IMG/VR virus record: IMGVR_UViG_3300029265_000369
Location: 1 to 28,200 of that record
Strand: one strand, 5' to 3'
DNA: 28,200 nucleotides
DNA from: a virus
Shown: in pieces, positions 1-23,171 of the stretch
Layout: every line of letters begins with the position of its first letter
Numbering within the stretch: position 1 is the stretch's first letter
Program-made: the position numbers and the translations under genes
The notes under the pieces: model-generated
What the model was told of the DNA's origin: nothing
What the model saw: the letters and a program-made list of their open reading frames with translations, nothing else
Database searches by the model: none

Positions 1-92
1 GGGAGAGAGACCACCTCAAGCCTCACTCTTACCAGAATCTTCACAGCTAGTTACCAAGGGATCTTTACAAGTTACAGATACAGGGTTTATAC

Positions 93-125
93 GAGTAGGA
101 GGACATGACATCCGCAGCAACTCTT
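93..125. repeat. 33-base direct repeat, copy 1
   Basis: Matches 396-428 at 31 of 33 positions, including an identical 24-base core (98-121 versus 401-424). Read on the plus strand, the core contains GGAGG followed two bases later by ATG. That ATG opens an 11-codon frame (MTSAATLNLND, stop). The GGAGG-ATG spacing is shorter than usual for translation, so a protein-binding or promoter role is as likely as a leader peptide. Confidence 0.85.
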
Positions 126-256
126 AACCTGAACGATTAAATAACTTCCAAGGTTTGGAACTGTTCTTTTCCAATCTCCGCCCTAACTATCTACGCAGTG
201 ACCAACTCCCAGCCCCTGCCCAACTCTTGTCTTGAACTTCTTCAATGTGACTTAGG

Positions 257-383
257 TAGTGACTAGGTAATGACACTGTACAAACACAGTTGTGGCACTC
301 TATGTGTTAAGTGTGCAGAAGGTTAACTACAGTTGTACTGTACGAACACACTTGTCGAAACACTGGGTATTACCTAGTCACTA
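257..383. repeat. 15-base perfect inverted repeat with 97-base loop
   Basis: TAGTGACTAGGTAAT at 257-271 is the exact reverse complement of ATTACCTAGTCACTA at 369-383. The arms each contain the palindrome TAGTNACTA, and a third related copy, TAGTAACTAG, follows at 387-396. The arrangement resembles repeated operator sites for a dimeric DNA-binding protein, or an origin structure. No such binding protein is encoded in the window. Confidence 0.8.
275..355. repeat. 19-base direct repeat pair inside the inverted repeat
   Basis: ACTGTACAAACACAGTTGT at 275-293 and ACTGTACGAACACACTTGT at 337-355 differ at two positions and are 62 bases apart. The octamer ACAGTTGT at the end of the first copy also appears at 329-336, immediately before the second copy. 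The copies sit symmetrically within the 257-383 inverted repeat and look like iterated binding sites. Confidence 0.75.
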
Positions 384-395
384 GCTTAGTAACTA

Positions 396-428
396 GAGTT
401 GGAGGACATGACATCCGCAGCAACCCTT
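396..428. repeat. 33-base direct repeat, copy 2
   Basis: Second copy of the 93-125 repeat, starting 303 bases further on. Here the ATG inside the repeat opens a 10-codon frame (MTSAATLCYL, stop) that shares its first seven residues with that of copy 1. It lies directly after the third TAGTNACTAG site, so repeat types are interleaved. Confidence 0.85.
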
Positions 429-494
429 TGTTATCTATAAATAGCAACAGTCGATACACCTCGTTAGAAGTGCATCTCAGTTACTACTTAATTA

Positions 495-2690
495 CTACTG
501 GCAGAAGTAGTAGCTGTTTTCGTGGTTAAGTATCTCTTCAGTGATAACTACATCTCTGAAGTCAAGATCGATACCACCAAGCTGGGCAGCCAAGTGTTCA
601 ACAGGATCGTTGTCAATGAAGCAGATCTTGTAGGCTTGTGCTATCACACCTTGTAACTTGTCTGCATCTTCAAGACATACACGAAAGCAATCATGTATTG
701 ATGTAATACCTTGCAAGCCTTGCTCTGCTGCTAAGTTCACCACAGTCCGTGCTACAAGAGCATCTAAGCCTTGAATGAAGTTAACGCAGAAGGTACGAAC
801 ATACTCAGCACCGGTTGGGCGAGCTGTCCGTACTCTGTAGTTATTACCGAGAGTTCCGAAGTCGATACACTTCTCACCATTGACGAAGCCACCGAGGTTG
901 ATGGAGAAGTCTTTGCTAACGAACTCAGTACCGTAAGCCTTGTGCTTAACAACAAAGCCATCAACGTGTTTGTAGTTGATAGTCTCTGCTAACACCATGA
1001 CCTCTTCATCGTCACCGTTGTAGTTGGTAACTGTCTCCATCTTGCACCCAGCTTTTACCCACAAGGCATTCTGGACAGCATCCTCAACAGCATCCCTAAA
1101 GTTGATGATGCGCTTACCTAGTGTTATCTCTACAGCTTTCTTACACTCTTTAGCTAAGATTTGGAGTTCATCATTATCCATAATGACTTGATCTTTGATT
1201 GAGTTTGTCCAATCACGATCACCGTAGATAGCACCGGCACCACCGCCATATTGCACCATCATATAGGGCGTCTTGATCCAGTCTCTACTAAGTACACCAG
1301 ATAGGTCAGTAGTCAGCTCTGACTTCTCAATCAGCTTCTCTAATACTTCCAAGCTCTGCTGGTAAGGATCTTTCACCTTCTCAGCTGAAGTAGTAAGGCC
1401 TGTAGCTATTGCCATATTCAAGTCACCAGCACAGAATGCGTAGTACTGAGTACCACTACACTTAGCATCAAGACCAAAGCCCACTGTAGACTTAAGCAAG
1501 CCAGTGAGTGTGAAGTCTTGATAATCCCAAGCCAACCGTATTAATGTCATTGGCTTCTTAGGCACTTGAATCGATGTGCGGTTTACAGTGACTGTCTTGC
1601 TCCTGCTGGCCTCTGCTACTAAGCATAAGGTTAAGAACTCTTCGGGATTTGCAGCCACCCAAGCAAGACGCTTCGTAGTAGCAAAGCCACCAGCGATATC
1701 CTTGAGCTCACCCATGAACATATCAAAGCCAACAGACCCTTCAAGCACACCGGTCTGGTTATAAACCAAGCTGTAGTAGCTGCGTTCTTCATCACCTGCC
1801 TGTGGGTTAGGGCCGGCACAACCAACATGGTAACCACGCGCCCTGTTATCCATATCGTACTTACTGAATAACGTATTGCTCACTAGCTCAGCACAAGCCT
1901 CTCGAACATAACGGGTGGTGTCTAGCTGCCGCTTGATCTGCTTCTTCACAACATCTGAAATGATATCCTTGCCAGATCGTTGTACTAAAGCAATCGTATT
2001 AGCCACAACAGATAGCATCCGCTCATGCACCTGATACCCTACCTTGTTCAAGTTGATGCAGAAGTCTCTAGCATTCTTATTACCACTAGTCCCATTCTTT
2101 ACGAAGGGTATGTTTCTATCCACCCCTGGTTCAAAGTCAGGATAGCTCTGCTCATTAAGCTCAACTTGCTTAAGGAAGGCATCTGTTAGTGTGAAGTCAT
2201 CATTCAACCAACCCCGACCGATTGCTGTGTCTATCAGGTAGTTGACATCAACCTCTATCGGCTTATCCAACAAGACAGTGTTTCTGACATTTAAAGTCTT
2301 CAGCTTCTTGAGCATAAGATCACCCACGATCTGCTCACTGTATACTTGGCTATCAGTAACCATTGCACAAAGACTCTGTACAACTGCTGTAAAGCAGACA
2401 GCTAACCGGTTGACCTTGCGATCAGTCTTCAATCCATCCAGTGTACGCAACCAATGAGGAAATCCACCAAGCACTATGGCCTGTACAGTCCTAACCGAGA
2501 TGCGGTATATCACCTTGCTAGTGTCCATCGGATCAGACACCTCACTATGTGTAGGTAACTCCATCTCCCAAGGAGCCAAAGCCATTTGAGATTCAGTGTT
2601 CATTGCAGTGTTAGTGTTAGTTGAAGTGTTCATAATAGTTACTCTATTAATGGTAAAAGGGTTTGTATTGCAGTGTGTGTTAGTAGTCAT
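495..2690 (-). CDS. Single-subunit DNA-dependent RNA polymerase, T7 family
   Basis: This 731-residue protein should transcribe phage genes independently of the host polymerase. Motif A is LDAKCSGTQYYAF with catalytic Asp408, motif B is RDWIKTPYMMVQYGG with Arg469, Lys473 and Tyr481 (equivalents of T7 R627, K631, Y639), and motif C is SIHDCF with catalytic Asp667. The C-terminus (EILNHENSYYFCQ) resembles the Ser-Asp-Phe-Ala-Phe-Ala end of T7 polymerase. It is about 150 residues shorter than T7 polymerase, mostly in the N-terminal promoter-binding and RNA-binding part, so its promoter should differ. The chosen start overlaps the upstream gene's stop by 11 bases, suggesting translational coupling. 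Met20 at 2633, with a weak GAG upstream, is an alternative start. All catalytic residues are present, so an active enzyme is likely. No promoter of its own kind was recognised in the window. Confidence 0.95.
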   Translation of the reverse strand: MTTNTHCNTNPFTINRVTIMNTSTNTNTAMNTESQMALAPWEMELPTHSEVSDPMDTSKVIYRISVRTVQAIVLGGFPHWLRTLDGLKTDRKVNRLAVCFTAVVQSLCAMVTDSQVYSEQIVGDLMLKKLKTLNVRNTVLLDKPIEVDVNYLIDTAIGRGWLNDDFTLTDAFLKQVELNEQSYPDFEPGVDRNIPFVKNGTSGNKNARDFCINLNKVGYQVHERMLSVVANTIALVQRSGKDIISDVVKKQIKRQLDTTRYVREACAELVSNTLFSKYDMDNRARGYHVGCAGPNPQAGDEERSYYSLVYNQTGVLEGSVGFDMFMGELKDIAGGFATTKRLAWVAANPEEFLTLCLVAEASRSKTVTVNRTSIQVPKKPMTLIRLAWDYQDFTLTGLLKSTVGFGLDAKCSGTQYYAFCAGDLNMAIATGLTTSAEKVKDPYQQSLEVLEKLIEKSELTTDLSGVLSRDWIKTPYMMVQYGGGAGAIYGDRDWTNSIKDQVIMDNDELQILAKECKKAVEITLGKRIINFRDAVEDAVQNALWVKAGCKMETVTNYNGDDEEVMVLAETINYKHVDGFVVKHKAYGTEFVSKDFSINLGGFVNGEKCIDFGTLGNNYRVRTARPTGAEYVRTFCVNFIQGLDALVARTVVNLAAEQGLQGITSIHDCFRVCLEDADKLQGVIAQAYKICFIDNDPVEHLAAQLGGIDLDFRDVVITEEILNHENSYYFCQ

Positions 2691-2931
2691 AGCTATTAAG
2701 CAGTGACGAAATACGACCGTTCAAATAACCAATGCGGCGAACATCGACTGGCATCTCAAGGAAGAGTTCTGTTATCTCTTTCTCCATTGCCTCAATGTCT
2801 CTTATTGCATTGACTTGTGCGGGGTTCTCATTCATCGGGATTGCGCCACCTTCGTTACCTTCGGCCATAATCTGATCTATGACTTTCTGACCAAGTGCTG
2901 CTTTTAGTTCATTCGCGATACTGTTAGACAT
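2680..2931 (-). CDS. Small hypothetical protein upstream of the RNA polymerase
   Basis: An 83-residue protein that is not recognised. The start MSNSIANELK at 2931 is chosen because AAGAGAG lies eight to ten bases upstream; a longer frame reaches back to 3030 but lacks a ribosome-binding site and overlaps the preceding small gene. The sequence is mostly helical and charged (EAMEKEITELFLEM in the middle), with no membrane segment and no cysteines. It overlaps the RNA polymerase start by 11 bases and is probably co-transcribed and translationally coupled with it. A host-takeover or regulatory role is possible from the position alone. Confidence 0.7.
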   Translation of the reverse strand: MSNSIANELKAALGQKVIDQIMAEGNEGGAIPMNENPAQVNAIRDIEAMEKEITELFLEMPVDVRRIGYLNGRISSLLNSYDY

Positions 2932-2959
2932 AGTAAATACTCTCTTAATGAATTGGGGT

Positions 2960-3124
2960 TTAGATAGACGCAACGCTCTTGACATCGGTGTACCAGTGAC
3001 CACTACGACTGTGGGCTTGCTCAATTGCATGAGCCATATTCACTGCCCATACATCATGGGTGATAGTGTCATCAGGGCTGGCTACTGATACGAGCGTGAT
3101 TGCATAAAGAAACAGATTGTTCAT
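2960..3124 (-). CDS. 54-residue hypothetical protein, first gene of the RNA polymerase cluster
   Basis: This short frame encodes a protein that begins MNNLFLYAITLVSVAS and ends HWYTDVKSVASI. The start has AAGGT at an 8-base spacing. The N-terminal 15 residues are hydrophobic and could be a signal peptide or a short membrane anchor; the remainder is polar. It ends 28 bases before the 83-residue gene, and the three genes run in one direction toward the polymerase. No family is recognised. Good ribosome-binding site and tight placement argue that it is real, but its shortness leaves doubt. Confidence 0.55.
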   Translation of the reverse strand: MNNLFLYAITLVSVASPDDTITHDVWAVNMAHAIEQAHSRSGHWYTDVKSVASI

Positions 3125-3316
3125 AGTTAATACCTTAGTGAGTTAGAGATGAGAGAAGAAAAAGGTCAAGAGACTCCTTTCCTCCTTACCTTCATTCAGC
3201 CACCCACTGTGTTCTCCCAAAAATTCTATAAAAACAATCACCAGTACCACTTACCCTAATCGTTAGATGCAACTCCTACCTGTACAGTACTCTGTATATA
3301 ATTTACCCAACTACCA

Positions 3317-3357
3317 AAAAGAAAAATTTTATATATTTTCGCCAAATTTTAGGCGAA
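3317..3357 (-). terminator. Possible intrinsic terminator with U-rich tail
   Basis: On the minus strand TTCGCC (3357-3352), an 8-base loop and GGCGAA (3343-3338) form a perfect 6-bp stem, followed by an A/T stretch that ends in TTTTTCTTTTT (3327-3317). This is the layout of a Rho-independent terminator, although the U-run starts about ten bases after the stem rather than directly after it. It lies between the late genes and the RNA polymerase cluster, so it could stop late transcripts or attenuate those into the polymerase operon. Confidence 0.4.
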
Positions 3358-3494
3358 GAAATCCCTGTCACGCTTTGTGAAGTTTTACGAATATTTACAT
3401 AGTAAGTATTTAAGCCTGTGTTAAGCGCGTTCTGTTATTTACTTATTAATTATGGTGCAGAATCTACCAGCTTACCAAATCATTTTAAACTGAA

Positions 3495-3512
3495 GTGTTA
3501 AGGAATTAACAC
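3495..3512. repeat. Perfect 6-bp palindrome in the intergenic region
   Basis: GTGTTA and TAACAC flank AGGAAT. GTGTTAAG also occurs at 3419-3426 and 303-310, so the motif recurs in the two non-coding regions. It could be a protein-binding site; the evidence is limited to the repetition. Confidence 0.35.
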
Positions 3513-3568
3513 AATGTTAACAATAGGTTGATTAGTGTACTTTGATATTATCTACTCCCCTACAAATA

Positions 3569-3584
3569 TCACCCAAACGGGTGA
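3569..3584 (-). terminator. Stem-loop after the last late gene
   Basis: On the minus strand TCACCC-GTTT-GGGTGA forms a perfect 6-bp stem with a 4-base loop, 22 bases after the stop codon of the Ig-like gene. It is followed by TATTTGTAGG, which is only weakly U-rich. The position at the end of the late gene run suits a terminator or an mRNA-stabilising hairpin. Confidence 0.45.
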
Positions 3585-3606
3585 CTCTGTAGAGGTGTAA
3601 AGTGTG

Positions 3607-4008
3607 CTAGGCCTGCTCGAAGTAACTCTTCTTGCCTTTCTTCTTGGTCGTAACTACTTCTTCTTTAACGATTTCTTCTAAAACTTCTGCCACAACAGGT
3701 GCCACAACTTCTTCTATAGCTTCTTCAACAACTTCAGGCTCTTCTCCGAAGATAATCTCTGCAACATTACTTGCTACTGCATGACCATCGCTTCTTGCGA
3801 TTACTCTGTAGTGGGTACCCAGTGCTTTACCTACTTTGCCAAGGGTGAATGAACTACCTTGTGTACCACCTACAAACATCCATCGACCTTCACGCCTTAC
3901 TTGAAACTCAAAGGCTGCTTCTACGCTGGCCTCTGCCTTAAAGGTAATGGGTTGGCCTACTTCTGTGTAGATAGTTTCTATGGGCTCTACTGTAAATTTA
4001 TTAATCAT
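3607..4008 (-). CDS. Ig-like domain protein with acidic and lysine-rich tail
   Basis: A 133-residue protein. Residues 1-88 look like one beta-sandwich of the Ig-like type often found on phage virion proteins (YTEVGQPITFKAEA, then ARSDGHAVASNVAEIIF, a typical final strand). Residues 89-118 are almost entirely Glu, Val, Ala and Pro and probably form an extended or helical acidic segment, and the protein ends with KKKGKKSYFEQA. The gene begins directly at the stop codon of the coiled-coil membrane protein, with GGAGG in front of the ATG. It is the last gene of the late run. Ig-like phage domains often bind weakly to cell-surface sugars, but here function is inferred from fold resemblance only. 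Confidence 0.55.
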   Translation of the reverse strand: MINKFTVEPIETIYTEVGQPITFKAEASVEAAFEFQVRREGRWMFVGGTQGSSFTLGKVGKALGTHYRVIARSDGHAVASNVAEIIFGEEPEVVEEAIEEVVAPVVAEVLEEIVKEEVVTTKKKGKKSYFEQA

Positions 4009-4272
4009 CTATCCTCCAAGGATTGATCTAAGTACGATGGCGACAACAATAGTTGCAACGCCAGTTACGCCAGCTAGGATGGTGTTGTTTCTGGTTACTT
4101 GTTTGTCCAAGCGAATCACGTTCAACTCAATCACTGACAACCGTTCAACAGCTACACCAGAGCGCTGTGCAATTTGTGATACCCGTTCTTCTATCACCAT
4201 TTGCCTGCTGGCTATTTCTGTTAGTTTCTCCAATGTCCGTTCTATACGGTCAAAACGTACACTATCATCCAT
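4009..4272 (-). CDS. Coiled-coil protein with C-terminal membrane segment (XhlA-like)
   Basis: An 87-residue protein with a charged helical N-terminal part (residues about 5-60, likely coiled coil) and one membrane segment at about 65-85 (ILAGVTGVATIVVAIVL). This layout matches the haemolysin XhlA-type proteins that accompany phage holins; an inner-membrane spanin would have its membrane segment at the other end. It starts one base after the holin-like gene stop, with GGAGAG nine bases upstream. A role in lysis, as holin partner, is likely but not proven. Confidence 0.55.
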   Translation of the reverse strand: MDDSVRFDRIERTLEKLTEIASRQMVIEERVSQIAQRSGVAVERLSVIELNVIRLDKQVTRNNTILAGVTGVATIVVAIVLRSILGG

Positions 4273-4273
4273 G

Positions 4274-4684
4274 TTACTTAGCTCTCCATAACTTCAAGCC
4301 CACTGCTGCGAATACCACGGCGGTCATCATTTCACCCATGTCTACGCCGGCTTCGTTCAAAGCACGTATGCCTTCAACAGTTCCAGTAAGTAAACGGGCA
4401 TCACCGGCATAGGCCAGCCAAACAGCACCGGCCAATATCCCAACAACGGGTAGAGTTATGATTATGGTTACATATTCATCTTTCCATGAACTGTCTTGGT
4501 TGGCTGCGTTAATAGCCTCCCACTCAGCATCGGAAAGGGTTATTTGCGTTTCGTTAGAGAGTTTAGCCTGGCTAAGTTTGGCCCTGCCTGTCTCTTTGGC
4601 TTGCTTGCGATCTTGGTTCTTCGTGTACATAGATGACAGCGGCTTGACCACTGCACCTAATACTTTACTTATCAACCCCAGCAT
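4274..4684 (-). CDS. Holin-like membrane protein (GTA_holin_3TM type)
   Basis: A 136-residue protein resembling the three-segment holins first described in gene transfer agents. It has an amphipathic N-terminus (1-18), a polar linker, the characteristic SWKDEY motif at 66-71, a membrane segment at about 72-93 and another at about 118-132, ending in KLWRAK. Such holins open the inner membrane at the end of infection. The start overlaps the stop of the upstream gene (TAATG). It is followed directly by the XhlA-like gene, making a compact lysis pair. No endolysin gene is adjacent. Confidence 0.65.
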   Translation of the reverse strand: MLGLISKVLGAVVKPLSSMYTKNQDRKQAKETGRAKLSQAKLSNETQITLSDAEWEAINAANQDSSWKDEYVTIIITLPVVGILAGAVWLAYAGDARLLTGTVEGIRALNEAGVDMGEMMTAVVFAAVGLKLWRAK

Positions 4685-5487
4685 TAGAATAGCCCGTCCA
4701 TTTGTGACAACTGGGTGCGGGTGTTAGCTGTTTCTAGTTGGTCAAGTTCTTCCCAATGCTTAACATGAAGCTGGTGTTGCATACTTGCAACAAGGGCAAT
4801 CAGGTCTAAGAGCTCTAATTCATCAATGGGTTTGGTTGTACCATCTGCTGCCCTTACTACATCACCGCCAGCTAATAGTGTGGTGTGCAGTATGCCTAAG
4901 CACTCAGCAGAGCAAGTAATGGCAAAGCCCAGTGCTGTTTCTACTAGCCATTTGGTCTTTAGTGCCTTGTCTCGGCGCGCAATACTCTTGTTTATGTAGT
5001 AATTACGGGCTGTTTGAACGTCTGTACCTTTGCCATCACGGGGTTTATTGGGCAGAGAAATCAGGAAAGGGTCGGTGCTTTGGTCGGTTAAATCACGCAA
5101 TTGTTGCCGGTATTCCTCCCATTCACCCTTTTGTAGGACTCTATCTGACTGTATTTGCCCATCCGATTCATCCAACAGCTCGTTACGTCGCTCTCTTAGT
5201 GAGTCCCAGCGCCGGCTTATGCGGGCATCAACGTCACCTTGATAGTCAACCAGTGTTGGCTTGCGTACATAAACGCCCTCTTCTTCCACAACATAGTAGG
5301 TGTAGATTTTGTCGGCGGTGTGCGGTACAAACTCAGTGGCCTGTGGTGCTTCTAGTGGTGTGTAACCAAAAGAGGCAAGGTTGGCTGCCGTTAATACAGC
5401 AGGCAAGTTGGTGTCACTGAGTTGTTCACGCAATTTATCTTCTGTTATCAGATTAGTAAAACCATCCGATACTTTTCCATATAGCAT
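4684..5487 (-). CDS. Tail fibre-associated protein with chaperone-like domain
   Basis: A 267-residue protein. Residues about 91-148 (RRWDSLRERRNELLDESD, then GEWEEYRQQLRDLTDQ and a proline-rich end) match the phage tail assembly chaperone motif found in many fibre-associated proteins. The N-terminal 80 residues begin with LYGKVSDGFTNLI and contain a possible beta-rich domain. The C-terminal half (150-267) is helical and unrecognised. The ribosome-binding site AAGGA lies six bases upstream. It probably helps assemble or cap a tail fibre encoded upstream, like the comparable protein at 8702-9250. Confidence 0.55.
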   Translation of the reverse strand: MLYGKVSDGFTNLITEDKLREQLSDTNLPAVLTAANLASFGYTPLEAPQATEFVPHTADKIYTYYVVEEEGVYVRKPTLVDYQGDVDARISRRWDSLRERRNELLDESDGQIQSDRVLQKGEWEEYRQQLRDLTDQSTDPFLISLPNKPRDGKGTDVQTARNYYINKSIARRDKALKTKWLVETALGFAITCSAECLGILHTTLLAGGDVVRAADGTTKPIDELELLDLIALVASMQHQLHVKHWEELDQLETANTRTQLSQMDGLF

Positions 5488-15829: not shown

Positions 15830-16401
15830 TTATGTTTCCTTGCAGCGCTTCGCTCAAGAAAGTCTTTAAGGCTTGGCGAGCGTACTTTGGGATCAGCGGT
15901 AAACAAGGACACGATTGAATTCGCAATAGACCCAACAAGCCCAACAGCTTCATTCAATATAAAGCCACGGCCTTCTGATTTATCCACAACAAACAATTGC
16001 TCAAGGGTTACTGTGCCGCGCATCACCATGATAGTTTTCGGGTCTTGTACGATATTGACATCGGTAATGATGCAATCGGTATACACGCCCAGGTTAGTAG
16101 TGACGGTTACCAGCTCACCGCGCAGGCACAGGTCGTTAAGGACATCGAAGTGGCCCCTTACCCTATCCGATATGGGTGAGTTACCCATCGCATCGGACTC
16201 TCTAAAGTGTTGGTTGGCCGTGACTACTTCAAGGTTAACTAATCGGTTTCGCCGTATAGCGTGGTCACTGACAAGGAACCCACTTTCCACGGGGTACTTG
16301 GTGATATCGATATGGCTTTTATGGGCCTCTACTACAACAGCATCAAAGATGAGTTGCTGGTCTTGTGAGTGCTCAATCATTGTGGGTATGTTGAGAGCCA
16401 T
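15826..16401 (-). CDS. Dit-like baseplate/tail protein
   Basis: A 191-residue protein starting at MALNIPTM, with AGGAGG nine bases upstream and one-base overlap with the hub stop (TAATG); the longer frame to 16458 lacks such a site and overlaps the hub gene. The N-terminal domain (LIFDAVVVEAHKSHIDITKY, then PVESGFLVSDHAI) matches the Dit-like phage tail domain, with the characteristic Pro-Val-Glu-x-Gly and Asp-His segments. Residues 95-150 (LVTVTTNLGVYTDCIITDVN) are beta-rich. It probably forms the ring around the hub between the tail tube and the baseplate. Confidence 0.7.
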   Translation of the reverse strand: MALNIPTMIEHSQDQQLIFDAVVVEAHKSHIDITKYPVESGFLVSDHAIRRNRLVNLEVVTANQHFRESDAMGNSPISDRVRGHFDVLNDLCLRGELVTVTTNLGVYTDCIITDVNIVQDPKTIMVMRGTVTLEQLFVVDKSEGRGFILNEAVGLVGSIANSIVSLFTADPKVRSPSLKDFLERSAARKHK

Positions 16402-17357
16402 TAGGATTCCCCTCCTGTATTTTGTGACCACCTGTGGCCCTTTATTGTGGTGATCCACTTATCTTCGTAGTTTGAGCCGGCGTGCTTTACTTCTAACAAT
16501 AAGAAAGAAGTAAGCAATGCATAGCTGAAGTAGTTATCTGTCAAGAACAGATCGGTATTGTCTTGTAGCCTTGAGTAACTGTTAGACCGGCTTTGCTCAT
16601 CGACAAACTCACTGGTGTCAATGACATCACCTGCACGTATGGCAGGGGTGAGTGTGTAGGGCAAAACAATCTTTTGATTACCTATCTCAGGCAAGCCTTT
16701 GGTGCGAGACAACTCAAGAACGTGTTTGTTCTTTGAGCTTTTACTCAGCTCTTCAACCGACCCTGAAACCAGCTTAGGTGTGACGCGAATAGAACGTGCA
16801 TTTTCTACTTTGAAGTACACGTATTTTTCGTCACAGATACCTTTAAGCAGGGAGTAAGCTGAAGAGGTCACTGTCCGTGAAGGTACGATGGACTCGAGTA
16901 TTTCATCATAGACACCAATGAAGTTGCACCCACGCGAGAAGCCTGCCGTAATAGCCAGCCTATTCATATAAGCCCGAAAGGTTTCTTCTCGCCCTGATAC
17001 CGGCATGGTAATAACCCGGCCCAAGTTCTGCGTCCCTACAGCCAAGCAATACAAGCTGGTAATGTGATCGGGCAGTTGTCTTTTGCCCCATGCATTTTGT
17101 ACGACGCCGGTGAAGACTGTTTCCAGATCACCTTCGTCTTCATACCCTGCCTCTAGCAACACATGAAGTGTCGATGTGGTTGACAATTTTACGGCGTTCT
17201 CTAATGCAAGGTTGTAAATATCTATCTTGCATGTGTCTACTGCCTCACCCATCGTGCTGGTATAACTAAAGTCCATACGCAGGGCATCAGAAGACCAAAT
17301 CTTTTTGCTTAGATTGGCATCTTCATAGACTTTTAACCGTATCTTTCGTTTCCACAC
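16401..17357 (-). CDS. Baseplate hub protein
   Basis: A 318-residue protein in the position of the baseplate hub (P2 gpD, Mu gp44, T4 gp27-like). It begins WKRKIRLKVYEDANLSKK and has beta-rich segments (AVDTCKIDIYNLALENAVKL, STLHVLLEAGYEDEGDLETV) and FTGVVQNAWGKR, all typical of hub proteins from phages with this tail type. The middle (AYMNRLAITAGFSRG, SAYSLLKGICDEKYVYFKVE) recalls the hub domain that follows the LysM-free core. The start codon is GTG at 17357, with AGGAG six bases upstream. No lysozyme domain is present. Confidence 0.7.
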   Translation of the reverse strand: MWKRKIRLKVYEDANLSKKIWSSDALRMDFSYTSTMGEAVDTCKIDIYNLALENAVKLSTTSTLHVLLEAGYEDEGDLETVFTGVVQNAWGKRQLPDHITSLYCLAVGTQNLGRVITMPVSGREETFRAYMNRLAITAGFSRGCNFIGVYDEILESIVPSRTVTSSAYSLLKGICDEKYVYFKVENARSIRVTPKLVSGSVEELSKSSKNKHVLELSRTKGLPEIGNQKIVLPYTLTPAIRAGDVIDTSEFVDEQSRSNSYSRLQDNTDLFLTDNYFSYALLTSFLLLEVKHAGSNYEDKWITTIKGHRWSQNTGGES

Positions 17358-17369
17358 GTTCTTCTCCTA

Positions 17370-20300
17370 TTAAAAAGTTTCTGTTACTTGATCCACGGTG
17401 CGGGTGTTTTCTGTCGTATCAATATCATCGCCTGATACGCGCTGCACCATCACACCATTTTTCATATCCAATGTGCTTTCTACTTTTATGCGTGTCTCTT
17501 TTGCACCGTCCGAGCCTGTTACCAAGTCCCATGCGCCTACGCCTAAGTCAGCAACCATACCCGCAGCACCCTTAACGACATTGCCCGGGGCTGATGTGAT
17601 GGCATCGACCGCATTGCCGGGAAAGCCCAGCACTGAGGATACGGCACCGGCACCAGCGCCTATAAATCTACCGGGAAATCCTGCTACCCCACTTATGGCT
17701 CCTGTCACAGAGTCGAGTGTTTCAAAGCCCTCTTCGTTGCGGAAGTACTCACCCAAGGTGGCTATAGGTGCATCACCTAATCGTCTCTTGTTTGCCAACA
17801 AGTCGCCTTTCTTATTCTCGATCAGCATGTTGGTTCTAAACAACGCCGCATCGGTTGTGCCCAGTCCATCAAACCGTGCATCGCCTTGTTCAGCAATGCG
17901 CGCCTCCCGCTTCATCTCGTCCAGATCATCTTGGTTGAGGTTGCGAGCGCCAGCCAAGCCTTGCAAAACACTGCCTGATAACTTACCGGCTACATTGATA
18001 CCACGACTGTCTTGGTCTTTAACTTCTTGAAGCGCATCGGCTATTGAGCCATTGGCCAGTGTCTCTCTGGTAAACAACCCGTGCGTGTCTGACATGAGCT
18101 TACTAAGAGCTGCTGGCTTCTCCGCATCATTCAGGGTTTGAATAACTTGGAATTTGGTGGCAAGGTCGTTGGCTTTCTCATCACTCATGCCCAGCTCTTG
18201 CAAGTGACCTTGCCCGCGCTTGAACTTAAGTTTTGTTTCATCGGCACCGATGTTAGCCAGGGCATCGACGCTCTCTGCCTCTGCGCCTGCATACTTAATA
18301 ATGCCTGCGCCAGCTTGCACGACCATGCCAACTGCGCCGCCCATTTTGCCACCTAACATGCCAGCCAGCCGGCCCTTCACACCGCCCGAGCCACCGCCGC
18401 CGCCTAGCAAGGTTTTAAACAAGCCTTTGCCTTCACCGGTTAGTGCATCGGAGATGGTAGATAGACGTTCATTGCCGAGTCGGTTGTCTGCTTTGTTGGC
18501 TTTCTCTGCCTCTTGTCTGCTCTGTCCTTGCGTAACATCGCCCAAGCCCTCTTGATTGAGGTACGCCTGTGTTGCAGCCGTTCCGCCGCCGGCCATGTCT
18601 GCTTTCTTAGCAGCACCAAAGCGTTGTATCTTGTCTTTGTTGTTGGCTTCCCATTCACGAAACTCATCAGAGTCTCGTTCGATCTTGCCGGCCTCACGCA
18701 TACGCCAATCAGAATCAGAGTAGCTTGCGTGTGCGCCCTCGTTACCTGAGAATGCACTGTTGCTTGATGACCACACCCGTTGCAGCGTATTAGACTCAGC
18801 TTCCGATACCATCATCTGCATCATCATCTGGTCTTTGTGCTTGGCAAACAGGCCTGCATCGTTCCTATCATCACCGACACTGCTGGTCTTGAATTCTTGC
18901 AAGTGCAGTTTGTCTTTATCATCAATGTGCATTCTGTCTGGTGAGATGCCCATGTTCTGATACTTGGGATTAGTAATTAACCCTGACTCAAATAAGTCCA
19001 AACCGGTGCGCTCTTTAAGCATCCGTGCGCCTTGCTTCTCGCCTATCTCACCTATGGCAAAAGCACTGTGATCTTGTTGGCCTTGAGCATCTTCCTTCTG
19101 GCCTTCAGCAATACCGGTTAAGGCATCTTGCCCATAAGCGTTATAGCCTGAGATGGCATAGCCCGCTTCGGTAGCTGTAGCAACAGGCTTGCGCTCATCT
19201 TTCCACGCTGGGGTGCCTTGCTCGTTGTCGCTAAAGTTAAGGTTTGGCTTTAGCTTCTTCAGTTGATCTAGTTGATCGTTCGATGTACGGTTTTTTGCTT
19301 GAGGTGTAACTAGGTCGGCTGCTGAATTATACTCGCGCCGGTAAGGTGTCCCACTCTTTACAGGTGGCTTGCCAGGTTCTACTTTCTTGGGTGGCACTGC
19401 CTTCTCTGGCATGTCGGCAAAAGTTACCTCTTCGGCACCAAACAAATCGTTGTACATTGTTTGTTTGTCAAAAAGCTTTTGCCTAGTTTGCCGTTTTTCC
19501 TCACCTACCCTCCACACGTTACGCTGGTGGTCTTTCATATTTTGGTCAGGTTCGGGTTGGTTTTCACCCTCTTTATCAATGCCTAAATTGAACGAAGTGA
19601 TTTGAGGATTTGACAATCCAAGATATCCTGTGTCAAAACTTCCGACATCTTTGTTGAGGTCTACCTCGCCCAGCTTACTGGCATCCATGTCTTCAAACTT
19701 ACTGTCAAAGGCGTAGTAAATTTCTTCACCGTCTTCGTCCAATAGGCCTGAAGCGGTACGAGCGGATGCATTGTGTTGCTCACCAATAAGTTGATCGACA
19801 ATAAACTCACGCCCTGTCTGCCCACCTATAGTATCTGCTACATCGCCTTGCATACCGATAGCATCGTTTAGGTCTGAGCCTGATAGTGCTGCACCGGTTG
19901 TCTTTAATGCATCGCGGCGCTTCCGCCTATTTGCGTCCCTTCCTGATCCATAGAAAGCACCTACGTCACTGGCAAGATCGCGCATCTCATGCCTAACTTT
20001 TGTGTAGTCATGGTTGTACTTGTTCTTGCCACTGGTTGCGTCAAAATTAAACTTTGGCACGCCACTGATCGTTGATGTCACACCACCGTCTAGCTTCCTG
20101 CCTTGGTCGTTGTCTGGATACTGTGCGGGCTTTCTTAAGTAGCTGCTGAGTTCACGCCCACGCTTGGTGCCATTGCCTCTAAGGGCTTGAGCAAATTGCT
20201 TGGTGCCAGGTATGGCGTCGGCTTTGCCTAAGAAAGATTCCGAGTTGTAACTCATTGCATTGGATCGGACGTTTTCTGCAATGAGCTTTTCCATTGTTGT

Positions 20301-20936
20301 GGAAGCAGTACGCAAACTGCCTTTGAGGTGATCGGGAACGTCGTTGAAGTATTTCTCTGTCAGCGAGTCAACAGCTGTGCGCCTTCCACTGGCATAATCT
20401 TCATCCGAATAACGCTGGGGTAAACCACCAATGTTAAACTGGGTGTTGAGTACTTCTAATTGATTGCCCCAATTGTCTGTGACTTCTCTTGATAGGGTTT
20501 CTTCTCTGTTGCGTATTACACCACTGGCGTCTGAGTGAACTGGATCTTTTTTACCTAGCTCAATAGAGTCCTTGATCCTCTTTCTTGATTCTCTTTCAGA
20601 GGCGGATCGGTGGTGTATTGCATCTTCTTCACTCACCCATTCGTCATTTGCGTTGTAGTGATTAACGGAAGACGGTTGCATGTGCGTGGGTACATCATCA
20701 CCAGCGTACATGGATACAGCGCCGAGGAGTGACGATTCGACCATTGAGTTGGTGGGCGCGACATCTTCTTGGTCTGCGCTGTCAAACAATTCGGCAGTGT
20801 CATACCTGCGAGCTTCTATGGCTGCAAGTACTTCTCTGGGGTGCTGTTCGTGATTCCCGCCCGCTGCTCTGTGTTCAGTAGCAGCTTGTAAAACTTGCGC
20901 CCTTATATGGGGTGGTAGGTTATCTAGTGCCGACAT
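17370..20936 (-). CDS. Tape measure-position protein with embedded YqaJ-type nuclease domain
   Basis: A 1188-residue protein between the frameshifted chaperones and the hub, exactly where the tape measure lies. The start at 20936 (MSALDNLPP) is chosen for the AGGA eight bases upstream; the frame opens three codons earlier. Residues 1-570 are hydrophilic and helical. Residues about 573-740 look like a YqaJ/lambda-exonuclease nuclease: GTPAW with Trp578, Arg582, TATEA, Glu633 (GEIGEKQGARM), SPD with Asp667, LQEFKT with Glu681 and Lys683, and Gln703-x3-Gln707 (KDQMMMQ). All catalytic positions of the family (D, E-x-K, Q) are present. Residues about 845-885 and 1082-1140 are Gly/Ala-rich hydrophobic stretches like those of tape measure C-termini. 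The protein is therefore probably a tail component injected with DNA that brings a nuclease into the host; whether it cuts DNA is unknown. Confidence 0.75.
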   Translation of the reverse strand: MSALDNLPPHIRAQVLQAATEHRAAGGNHEQHPREVLAAIEARRYDTAELFDSADQEDVAPTNSMVESSLLGAVSMYAGDDVPTHMQPSSVNHYNANDEWVSEEDAIHHRSASERESRKRIKDSIELGKKDPVHSDASGVIRNREETLSREVTDNWGNQLEVLNTQFNIGGLPQRYSDEDYASGRRTAVDSLTEKYFNDVPDHLKGSLRTASTTMEKLIAENVRSNAMSYNSESFLGKADAIPGTKQFAQALRGNGTKRGRELSSYLRKPAQYPDNDQGRKLDGGVTSTISGVPKFNFDATSGKNKYNHDYTKVRHEMRDLASDVGAFYGSGRDANRRKRRDALKTTGAALSGSDLNDAIGMQGDVADTIGGQTGREFIVDQLIGEQHNASARTASGLLDEDGEEIYYAFDSKFEDMDASKLGEVDLNKDVGSFDTGYLGLSNPQITSFNLGIDKEGENQPEPDQNMKDHQRNVWRVGEEKRQTRQKLFDKQTMYNDLFGAEEVTFADMPEKAVPPKKVEPGKPPVKSGTPYRREYNSAADLVTPQAKNRTSNDQLDQLKKLKPNLNFSDNEQGTPAWKDERKPVATATEAGYAISGYNAYGQDALTGIAEGQKEDAQGQQDHSAFAIGEIGEKQGARMLKERTGLDLFESGLITNPKYQNMGISPDRMHIDDKDKLHLQEFKTSSVGDDRNDAGLFAKHKDQMMMQMMVSEAESNTLQRVWSSSNSAFSGNEGAHASYSDSDWRMREAGKIERDSDEFREWEANNKDKIQRFGAAKKADMAGGGTAATQAYLNQEGLGDVTQGQSRQEAEKANKADNRLGNERLSTISDALTGEGKGLFKTLLGGGGGSGGVKGRLAGMLGGKMGGAVGMVVQAGAGIIKYAGAEAESVDALANIGADETKLKFKRGQGHLQELGMSDEKANDLATKFQVIQTLNDAEKPAALSKLMSDTHGLFTRETLANGSIADALQEVKDQDSRGINVAGKLSGSVLQGLAGARNLNQDDLDEMKREARIAEQGDARFDGLGTTDAALFRTNMLIENKKGDLLANKRRLGDAPIATLGEYFRNEEGFETLDSVTGAISGVAGFPGRFIGAGAGAVSSVLGFPGNAVDAITSAPGNVVKGAAGMVADLGVGAWDLVTGSDGAKETRIKVESTLDMKNGVMVQRVSGDDIDTTENTRTVDQVTETF

Positions 20937-21563
20937 TATCATCATCCTGTCTTGCGTCAGTTTTGATCTGCGCTTTTAAATCGAGTAGTTGGTGCATAAC
21001 CAAAATGTCCACAATGGTGTAAGTACCGTCATCCAATTGGTGCAATAAGCACAAAGGCGGTTCTGACATACAGGGACGGTGAATAAAGAAGTTAACGTGG
21101 GGGAACTGGCTGGCATAATCTTTGGGAGGGGGAAGGGGCAAATCGGTATCTGCCCCTTCTGTATAGACTTCTACTCTTCCACTTTCATGCTCAGCCCTTG
21201 TGCGAAAAAATCTTTATATTGTACCTCGCATACAAATGCGAAGACTTTATAAACGTGCATCAAGTCTTTAAAATCGGAGTCGAAAGTTTTGGAGTCGAGG
21301 CGTTCCCCTTCCCGGTAGGAAGAACAAACAGCCTCTTGTACGAGTTCCTTCATATCGGAATCGTTAGTAAAGCGGGTAAAGCGGAGTACGTCAGCAAATT
21401 CATATTTGCCTTCGATGAATGGTAGGATATGCTCACCCGATACGTCAAGAAGACGGTGCAGGTAGCGCATAGATTTTGTTACTGGCCATACATTGACGCG
21501 ATAGGTTACTCCGTCAATTGTTGCGTTAGTGGCCTGTTGTACTGGCCGTTTCTCTGTTTCCAT
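20920..21563 (-). CDS. Tail assembly chaperone, -1 frameshift product
   Basis: The chaperone frame from 21563 can continue, after a -1 slip at the T TTT TTC heptamer (21210-21204), into a second frame that stays open to 20922-20920. This gives a 214-residue fusion: 120 residues shared, then 94 residues ending in DARQDDDNVGTR. The second frame has no good start codon of its own (only TTG at 21141 without a ribosome-binding site), and it overlaps the start of the tape measure-position gene, exactly as in lambda G/GT and P2 E/E'. The fusion normally binds the tape measure protein while the short form binds the tail tube. Confidence 0.75.
21133..21158 (-). other. 8-bp stem-loop downstream of the slippery site
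   Basis: On the minus strand AAGGGGCA, a 10-base loop and TGCCCCTT form a perfect 8-bp stem. It begins about 45 bases after the slippery heptamer and 13 bases after the zero-frame stop. The distance is too great for a classic stimulatory structure, but an interaction with the AAGGGC directly after the heptamer (around 21198-21193) could bring it closer. Its function is uncertain. Confidence 0.4.
21171..21563 (-). CDS. Tail assembly chaperone, short form
   Basis: A 130-residue protein between the tail tube and the tape measure-position gene. It contains ATIDGVTYRVNVWPVTKSMR, an RLLDVSGEHILPFIEG segment and a helical C-terminal part (FKDLMHVYKVFAFVCEVQYK). It starts after GAGGG. It is the zero-frame product of a frameshifting pair whose slippery heptamer T TTT TTC lies at codons Asp118-Phe119-Phe120, ten codons before its stop (TAG, 21173-21171). 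Such proteins prevent premature tube polymerisation and help load the tube onto the tape measure. Confidence 0.8.
   Translation of the reverse strand: METEKRPVQQATNATIDGVTYRVNVWPVTKSMRYLHRLLDVSGEHILPFIEGKYEFADVLRFTRFTNDSDMKELVQEAVCSSYREGERLDSKTFDSDFKDLMHVYKVFAFVCEVQYKDFFAQGLSMKVEE
21204..21210 (-). promoter_or_regulatory. -1 ribosomal frameshift site T TTT TTC
   Basis: The minus-strand sequence GA(T TTT TTC) is read in the zero frame as Asp-Phe-Phe. It fits the X XXY YYZ rule exactly, with the last T of the Asp codon as the first X. After a one-base slip back, the reading frame continues from CGC without a stop for 94 codons. The P2 E/E' site is the similar T TTT TTG. Confidence 0.75.
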
Positions 21564-21577
21564 TTTACCCTCTTACG

Positions 21578-22072
21578 TTAGACGAAGTTGTAGTTTGCCG
21601 CGCTATCTGAACTGATAGAACCCGGAGAGTCTTCTTGCAGACCTTCAGAGAAGTACAGCTGAGCAAACTCAACAACCCATTTCACATCTGCAATGCCTAC
21701 GCCCCGGCTGTATACGGGTTGCTTAGGAACAAATCCGTCTGCGCCGTTTACACGGTCTTGGCCCATCAGGTCTTTCAAGTGTGCAGCGCCGATGCCTTTG
21801 AATTGCTCGCCATCACCCAATGTAGTTTCTTGGGTAAACTCGGCAAGGCGACGTAGGCCTGTGTTGGAGTTTGACGTTTGTAGCAAGTTGAAAGTCATGT
21901 AGCCTGAGCGGTCAGCAGTAGTTGCAATAACCATCTCACCTTTAGCGCCCATTACCCGGGCATGTTGTGCCGCAAAACGGCCTGCTTCGATGATGGAGTT
22001 AGAGGTACTGAAACCTTCAACCGTTACACCATCGAGCTGTAAATCCATATTGTAAAAACTATACTGCTTCAT
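21578..22072 (-). CDS. Tail tube protein, DUF3277 type
   Basis: A 164-residue protein whose start KQYSFYNMDLQLDGVTVEGF and the segment AKGEMVIATTADRSGYMTFN followed by LLQTSNSN are typical of the DUF3277/phiTE tail tube family, where a T-V-x-LLxTSxxN strand is followed by a helix. The C-terminal part (GADGFVPKQPVYSRGVGIAD, then VKWVVEF) is also family-like. Tube proteins stack as hexamers inside the sheath. AAGGAG precedes the start. It sits immediately after the sheath gene. Confidence 0.85.
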   Translation of the reverse strand: MKQYSFYNMDLQLDGVTVEGFSTSNSIIEAGRFAAQHARVMGAKGEMVIATTADRSGYMTFNLLQTSNSNTGLRRLAEFTQETTLGDGEQFKGIGAAHLKDLMGQDRVNGADGFVPKQPVYSRGVGIADVKWVVEFAQLYFSEGLQEDSPGSISSDSAANYNFV

Positions 22073-22082
22073 TTAATACTCC

Positions 22083-23171
22083 TTAGTTAAAGCTGCCGCT
22101 TATAGTGATGCCGTGCAGTGAACCTGCGCCAATAGCGACAAACCCAATACCTGAGTACACACGCGCAGCCTTGTCAGCATCGGAAACAGCAGACAAAGGT
22201 ACTGACGTTACAGCGTAACCATTGATGAGTGTGTTGCCTTCCTCATCAGAGCCAGAACCTAACAGACCGTTGCGCTTACCTTGTGCAAGTGCATCGCTAA
22301 CAGCTGCGACAATACGTGCAATGCCTAAATTGGTGTAAGGCACTTTGGTGGGTGACAAGTACAGCGCGTTAAACACGGCTAGTTGAATGTAGCTTTGCAA
22401 CCAGTGACGACCGTGTACAGTATCGATGTAACCACCACCTGCCATCTTGCCATCGGAATACAACAAGTTGCCTGCAACATCCAAGAATGCATTACAGTTA
22501 ACATTTTCTAGTGCAGCTTTCTGCGAAGAAGAGATGCTAGACGAAGTAATGCCAGGTAACTTCTTACCGAACAAGGTGATGGTGGTGTTAGTGCCACCGA
22601 AGTTAACAGTAAACGCACGACCTGCGACAGAAGCACAAGCGTACTGATCAACATTGCTGCCGTAAGTAACGATAGTGTTTGAGTAGGCGGCTGTTTGAAG
22701 CGTCTTAGCACTGGTGCCAGTCTGGGTAGATATGCTTAGTGTTGCAGAATCGTTGGTGTTGGCAAAGAATATCATGTCGCGGCTTTGAACCCAGCCGGCA
22801 GCAGCGATAGTGTCGGGGCCATCACGGTATGATTTGTCTAAGCAAACGCCATAGAAGCTGTCGTCGTACTCTTCCAGAGCAGTTAAGTTATCGACCAGTG
22901 CAGCGACAGCGCTTAAGGTGGTACCCACTTTTAATTCTGTAGGACGAGGCACTTGTCCAAAGTAGGCATTGGCTGCTTGTACAGCTTCACCCGATGTAAA
23001 ATCAGCAGCAACTTCACCGGCGCTAGAATAGCTGCGCATCAGTTCACCGGCGTCAAAGATTCCTTCGCCTTCGGGTGTTACAAATAACAGTGTACCAAAG
23101 CCGGCTAAGCCAGCAGGAGTAGGAGCGCTTGATATTGCTACGCTCACTACACTTGAGATAGGGACAGTCAT
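22083..23171 (-). CDS. Tail sheath protein, DUF3383 type
   Basis: A 362-residue protein of the DUF3383 sheath family. It begins MTVPISSVVSVAISSAPTPA, followed by GFGTLLFVTPEG and AGEVAADFTSGEAVQAANAY, the usual pattern in which a helix and a YFxQ segment close the first domain. The middle (DDSFYGVCLDKS) and the C-terminal helices (LQSYIQLAVFNALYLSPTKV, GIARIVAAVSDALAQGKRNG) match the conserved sheath core. Its contraction drives the tube through the envelope, and its presence shows that the virion is a contractile-tailed phage. The start is supported by TAGGAG. Confidence 0.9.
   Translation of the reverse strand: MTVPISSVVSVAISSAPTPAGLAGFGTLLFVTPEGEGIFDAGELMRSYSSAGEVAADFTSGEAVQAANAYFGQVPRPTELKVGTTLSAVAALVDNLTALEEYDDSFYGVCLDKSYRDGPDTIAAAGWVQSRDMIFFANTNDSATLSISTQTGTSAKTLQTAAYSNTIVTYGSNVDQYACASVAGRAFTVNFGGTNTTITLFGKKLPGITSSSISSSQKAALENVNCNAFLDVAGNLLYSDGKMAGGGYIDTVHGRHWLQSYIQLAVFNALYLSPTKVPYTNLGIARIVAAVSDALAQGKRNGLLGSGSDEEGNTLINGYAVTSVPLSAVSDADKAARVYSGIGFVAIGAGSLHGITISGSFN

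Follow-up and report, generated by a model that had tools for sequence, protein, structure and literature searches.

A YqaJ/lambda-exonuclease-type nuclease domain in the tape measure protein of a divergent Chaseviridae-like phage and of its relatives

Can a phage tape measure protein carry an enzyme that acts on DNA and, if so, upon which DNA would it act? The question is raised by a stretch of 28,200 nucleotides of viral DNA (positions 1 to 28,200 of the IMG/VR record IMGVR_UViG_3300029265_000369; hereafter the window), where an earlier sequence-only reading had placed a YqaJ/lambda-exonuclease domain inside the protein encoded at the tape measure position. The genes of the window are arranged in the order portal, protease, MCP, sheath, tube, tail assembly chaperone (TAC), tape measure-position protein (TMP), hub, Dit-like, spike, wedge, J and fibres (Table 1); thus, besides the TMP, they encode head, contractile tail, baseplate and fibres, with a single-subunit RNA polymerase at the left end. 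The TMP ORF is the sole large gene separating the TAC from the hub, as is also seen in the Chaseviridae records examined, and the gene order that had been invoked to place the nuclease-bearing protein as the tape measure therefore holds. Residues are numbered here from the first Met, which gives 1191 aa; the sequence-only reading started at the third Met (1188 aa), and its numbers are 3 lower.

Table 1. Coordinates of the features discussed in the text (positions in the window)
Feature	Position	Strand	Basis or conservation
Single-subunit RNA polymerase, Chaseviridae hallmark	495..2690	(-)	PF00940; phrog_414
Baseplate hub	16401..17357	(-)	phrog_196, E 2e-27
Tape measure-position protein (TMP), 1191 aa, internal YqaJ/lambda-exonuclease domain	17370..20945	(-)	Between TAC and hub; Chaseviridae TMP homology
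Nuclease domain, residues ~560-785	18591..19268	(-)	Pfam match 18798-19205 (residues 581-716)
Q706 ... M711; Q706 = lambda Q157	18813..18830	(-)	Both 45/45
E684-x-K686 = lambda E129-x-K131	18888..18896	(-)	Both 45/45
D670 of SPD motif = lambda D119 (metal)	18936..18938	(-)	45/45
E636 = lambda E85	19038..19040	(-)	44/44
W581 and R585 = lambda W24 and R28 (5'-phosphate pocket)	19191..19205	(-)	W 43/43, R 44/44 ungapped sequences
Small ORF between TAC and TMP	20920..21141	(-)	phrog_4364; Myduc and KPP10 have short ORFs at the corresponding place
Tail assembly chaperone (Phage_TAC_15)	21171..21563	(-)	PF21822, E 4.5e-14
Tail tube (KPP10_Orf10)	21578..22072	(-)	phrog_280
Tail sheath (DUF3383)	22083..23171	(-)	PF11863, E 8.4e-51; phrog_205

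Judged from its genes, the window phage is a divergent Chaseviridae-like myovirus. It combines a single-subunit RNA polymerase, a hallmark of the Chaseviridae (PMC12842549), with a myovirus tail module of the Chaseviridae type, and its sheath is ~40-45% identical to those of Proteus phage Myduc and of Chaseviridae phages of Aeromonas, with the same gene order. In the sheath tree the window falls within a clade of both Chaseviridae subfamilies and metagenomic relatives (support 92/100), on a long branch (0.93) because of which we regard it as a divergent relative; its placement inside the clade is weak (90/40). The window sheath has 362 aa versus about 470-483 aa in the aligned Chaseviridae, a region of ~100 inserted residues being absent; its surface domain may have undergone a natural deletion. 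At 1-4700 the RNA polymerase gene comes after the fibre region in transcription order. As this gene sits within a 3202-bp terminal repeat in the Myduc record, it is probable that the window contig runs across such a repeat in collapsed form. A 33-nt direct repeat beside the same gene (93-125 and 396-428, 94% identical, 303 nt apart) could be a duplication of a promoter or start region.

The window TMP is too diverged for pairwise search, so that profiles were needed: tblastn on phage records and a scan of viral contigs with this protein gave no match, and phmmer, when the PDB was searched with the domain as a single sequence, returned only chance matches to armadillo proteins. PF09588 was found at residues 581-716 with 27.4 bits, the cut-off being 22 bits (E 4.7e-6), and the window TMP scored 32.1 bits with the same profile in the genome-wide search. 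An HMM made from the domains of related phages, built without the window and without a stand-alone exonuclease (L047), gave the window ORF a score of 56.3 bits (E 9.6e-16); as a control, the top score among 2000 shuffled copies of the TMP was 6.8 bits and the reversed protein scored -2.1. The alignment used for the profile search of the PDB (A4) included L047, and the E-values of that search are therefore flattered.

Structure prediction points to the same fold. The AlphaFold2 model of the domain, from a 20-row alignment, had a pLDDT of 78 and a pTM of 0.78, and its top PDB matches in Foldseek were lambda exonuclease (3sm4, E 2.6e-7) and LHK-Exo (E 4.0e-7). When the model was compared with lambda exonuclease using VIA-align, Z was 16.0 for 6m9k (rmsd 3.2 Å, 193 residues aligned) and 15.8 for 1avq. 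The fold, with its restriction-endonuclease-like core, resembles nearly the whole of lambda exonuclease (1avq, 3sm4) and of LHK-Exo (3syy), with every catalytic residue in common. In the AlphaFold2 prediction of the whole TMP, the nuclease appears as the main confident island, flanked by segments that are mostly predicted as helix at low confidence (mean pLDDT 41) and for which the model is not usable. With profile and structural matches both at hand, and with the family-wide conservation given below, the presence of a YqaJ/lambda-exonuclease domain inside the TMP is borne out; the interval first proposed for it (18720-19220) was right in location but too narrow, the domain being somewhat larger (Table 1).

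The active site of lambda exonuclease can be followed residue by residue into the window, W24, R28, G81, E85, D119, E129, K131 and Q157 aligning with W581, R585, G632, E636, D670, E684, K686 and Q706, respectively. The conservation counts of Table 1 come from a set of 45 sequences that includes the stand-alone exonuclease L047. Among 27 domains selected at pairwise identity below 70% (median 24%), the only invariant window columns were W581, R585, G632, E636, D670, E684, K686, Q706, M711 and D744; seven of these ten we take to be active-site or 5'-phosphate-pocket positions of lambda exonuclease, the others being G632, M711 and D744. Since the columns that stay invariant among such divergent domains are mostly catalytic, the predicted nuclease activity is very likely under selection. 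The catalytic residues claimed to be retained are all present in the window and invariant across its relatives, with one exception among the proposed hallmarks: the column of the glutamine given as Gln707 in the sequence-only numbering is occupied by Q in 26 of the 45 sequences and by G in the other 19, and is no conserved catalytic position. A dead remnant or structural relic is ruled out by the invariant active site across divergent domains; a sequence artefact or chance motif, by the score of the relatives-only HMM, by the shuffled controls and by the invariance of the active site. We hold it as practically certain that the window TMP harbours a YqaJ/lambda-exonuclease domain with an intact active site.

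The domain might, alternatively, have lost its cutting activity and been kept for binding DNA, holding on to the genome end while the phage DNA is ejected. In favour of such a module, tail lumens do not usually contain folded nuclease domains; a domain that only binds would, however, be expected to lose some of its catalytic residues, whereas the metal-binding and catalytic positions, the lysine and the Gln among them, all stay invariant at ~24% domain identity. We regard a non-cutting role as very unlikely.

The nuclease-bearing TMP is real, but it is not unique to the window phage, as the whole Chaseviridae family has it. In a survey of viral contigs anchored on the sheath, the YqaJ domain was present in the TMP at all 37 distinct Chaseviridae-like loci from which a TMP was recovered. 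The same fusion thus recurs in 36 other distinct loci, by which a stand-alone recombination gene fused through misassembly is ruled out. Named carriers are Myduc (45.3 bits), pAh6-C, 4HA13, Y2, PP101, phiEcoM-GJ1, Faunus, VPs20, SppYZU05, ZPAH14 and PVN03. The complete TMPs of the clade have 1188-1595 aa; others are truncated where a contig is cut, and the deposited gene is split in two cases, those of pAh6-C and Spp001 (L003 and L038), in which two or three ORFs stand for a gene that is whole in near relatives, probably through sequencing errors or real frameshifts. A Chaseviridae-type TMP is also found in the record PP952070, named 'Staphylococcus phage Pel53'; the family is known from Gammaproteobacteria, and the host label may be wrong.

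Outside the clade, 23 loci (among them KPP10 and many prophage-type contigs) encode TMPs of 584-933 aa, and the YqaJ domain was found in 0 of the 23. One further locus, L056, was first counted as an outgroup row and was set aside as a cut contig inside the clade. A single change on the sheath tree explains the distribution of the domain (support 92/100; a single change in 93% of the bootstrap trees). KPP10 and Felix O1 share with the window a related tail module, the DUF3383 sheath and the gene order; their TMPs are of 742-778 aa (742 in Felix O1), and no YqaJ domain was found anywhere in either genome. The window sheath and the window J protein, when used as scan queries themselves, gave no match. 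The window capsid protein has two close relatives at 77% identity (L007 and L008), and the stretches that carry them gave no match to the sheath profile or to the domain profile.

The nearest counterparts of the window protein are the TMPs of Chaseviridae such as Myduc gp49, 4HA13 QEM43042, ZPAH14 gp34 and PP101 orf67, which lie at the same position, have 1200-1290 aa and contain an interior YqaJ domain with the same active site, although their overall identity to the window TMP is only ~16-22%. TMPs of the Myduc type differ from that of the window in having a C-terminal transglycosylase (SLT); no SLT match was found in the Nefertitivirinae protein pieces scanned (pAh6-C). The SLT-bearing TMPs (Myduc, phiEcoM-GJ1, L061 and L074) likewise carry enzymatic cargo, directed at the cell wall in the case of the SLT and at DNA in that of the nuclease. 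Directly outside the clade, locus L074 encodes a TMP of 584 aa (L074:7424-9178) with the transglycosylase only, whereas Myduc and L061 carry both enzymes; from these sequences it appears that enzymatic cargo is exchanged among these TMPs.

We then considered whether the protein travels in the particle. In the published LC-MS/MS list of virion proteins of phage 4HA13 (MN136198), the orthologue, annotated as tail tape measure protein, is the second entry and the major capsid protein the first (PMC9699118), which contradicts the possibility, raised with the sequence-only reading, that the protein is absent from virions. On the strength of this orthologue, the nuclease is likely carried in the virion and ejected. 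A helix measures 0.15 nm per residue, such that the 1241-aa TMP of ST32 would predict 186 nm as a full-length helix, and the ST32 tail measures 132 nm; once ~340 aa of globular nuclease and transglycosylase are subtracted, the prediction becomes 135 nm. The TMP sizes of ST32 and PP101 roughly match a ~132-nm tail when globular domains are treated in this manner. The arithmetic for ST32 is consistent with, but is not proof of, globular cargo lying outside the ruler.

A virion-borne nuclease could work within the particle or during its assembly, trimming or holding the genome end at the head-tail junction as T4 gp4 may do. One end of the TMP faces the DNA in the finished tail, as would suit such a role, but the domain lies mid-chain, at residues 560-785 of 1191 in the window and 760-1009 of 1374 in L050, and the assembly of contractile tails takes place away from DNA, before joining. 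The T4 gp4 family provides a virion-associated protein of restriction-endonuclease fold with DNase activity (PMC7824862); even so, we find an in-particle role distinctly improbable.

The reading that we prefer, tentatively and as something short of probable, is that the virion-borne exonuclease is ejected with the TMP and has as its purpose the resection of the ends of the phage's own terminally redundant genome. A precedent for TMP delivery comes from lambda, in which a biotin ligase placed on ManZ, an inner-membrane protein, robustly labels one phage protein during injection, the TMP (PMC13190303). On tail contraction the TMP would exit the tube before the DNA, and the nuclease domain would arrive in the cytoplasm, or at the membrane's inner face, and fold there. 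Lambda exonuclease starts at free ends of duplex DNA and degrades the 5' strand, and the predicted nuclease would likewise load on free 5'-phosphate ends and digest the 5' strand; its first substrate would be the nearest ends, those of the entering linear genome. Chaseviridae genomes have direct terminal repeats of ~3 kb (PMC12842549). If such repeats were resected, no information would be lost, and the complementary 3' tails laid bare could anneal to give a circle or a concatemer. RecBCD acts poorly on long 3' overhangs, and the resected ends would in this way be protected ahead of any phage gene expression. More tentative still is the complete scheme, in which the nuclease is delivered by the TMP, possibly in a trimeric state such as that of the lambda exonuclease ring, the repeats are resected before expression, and the ends are joined and denied to RecBCD. 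As a counterpoint, the Chaseviridae also encode a separate 5'-3' exonuclease, and Myduc a RecBCD inhibitor; these could carry out end processing and protection later.

Among the targets first suggested was host or competing DNA, and the injected nuclease might attack chromosome breaks, plasmids or resident phage DNA in place of its own genome ends. The intact active site and the virion-borne orthologue would suit such an attack. However, the lambda-exonuclease class requires free double-strand ends, for which reason host-DNA degradation is the less likely of the early suggestions, and there are few TMP copies per particle; other nucleases encoded by the family are made after infection. During infection by the Chaseviridae phage Tiny the nucleoid is condensed by 20-40 min and the DAPI signal is down by 60 min (PMC13340011), which could reflect such an attack, but the nucleoid persists at 40 min, slow for an injected nuclease. 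Altogether, attack on host or competing DNA appears unlikely.

Another possibility is that the nuclease is not delivered by the virion at all and serves late recombination by way of newly made TMP. The TMP nuclease is the sole YqaJ gene in each of 16 genomes, and any recombination of the lambda-exonuclease type would have to use it. Against this stand its fusion to a late structural protein that is found in the virion, as in the 4HA13 orthologue, and the lack of a partner: no annealase of the RecT, Erf or Rad52 type (PF03837, PF04404, PF04098) was found in 16 related genomes, the window genome itself being incomplete, and among ten Myduc proteins scanned against PHROG an SSB was the only single-strand-binding candidate, with no annealase seen. 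Lambda exonuclease is a stand-alone early enzyme with an annealing partner, whereas the window nuclease forms part of the interior of a late virion protein and has no detectable partner of the RecT, Erf or Rad52 type. As no annealing partner was found, the TMP nuclease is unlike the usual pair of exonuclease and annealase, and no cassette of the Red or RecET kind was found in the 16 genomes. We consider late recombination, too, to be distinctly improbable, and retain resection of the incoming genome ends as the preferred reading.

The enzyme has left a trace in the databases. PHROG 149, a 1242-residue profile that covers the Aeromonas-type Chaseviridae TMP, is labelled 'exonuclease', and PHROG 19855 'virion structural protein'; some RefSeq records of the protein are labelled 'exonuclease' and a few records 'exonuclease | yqaJ', and others tape measure, tail fibre or virion structural protein. 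We suggest that these scattered annotations designate one protein with two functions. TMPs with enzyme cargo and the 'exonuclease' labels were thus known; what is new, within the literature searched, is the linking of a DNA-acting cargo to the TMP, since no description of a nuclease in a tape measure was found in the open-licence literature covered.

The known roles of TMPs are those of ruler, membrane channel and carrier of cell-wall enzymes. If the present reading is true, no earlier TMP in the literature searched is known to have had DNA as its substrate. That a whole family, phages grown on E. coli K-12 included (flopper, host MG1655), has an exonuclease with conserved catalytic residues in its TMP would mean that the virion itself imports a DNA-processing activity into the cell, and it makes testable how linear, terminally redundant phage genomes survive and have their ends joined before phage protein synthesis.
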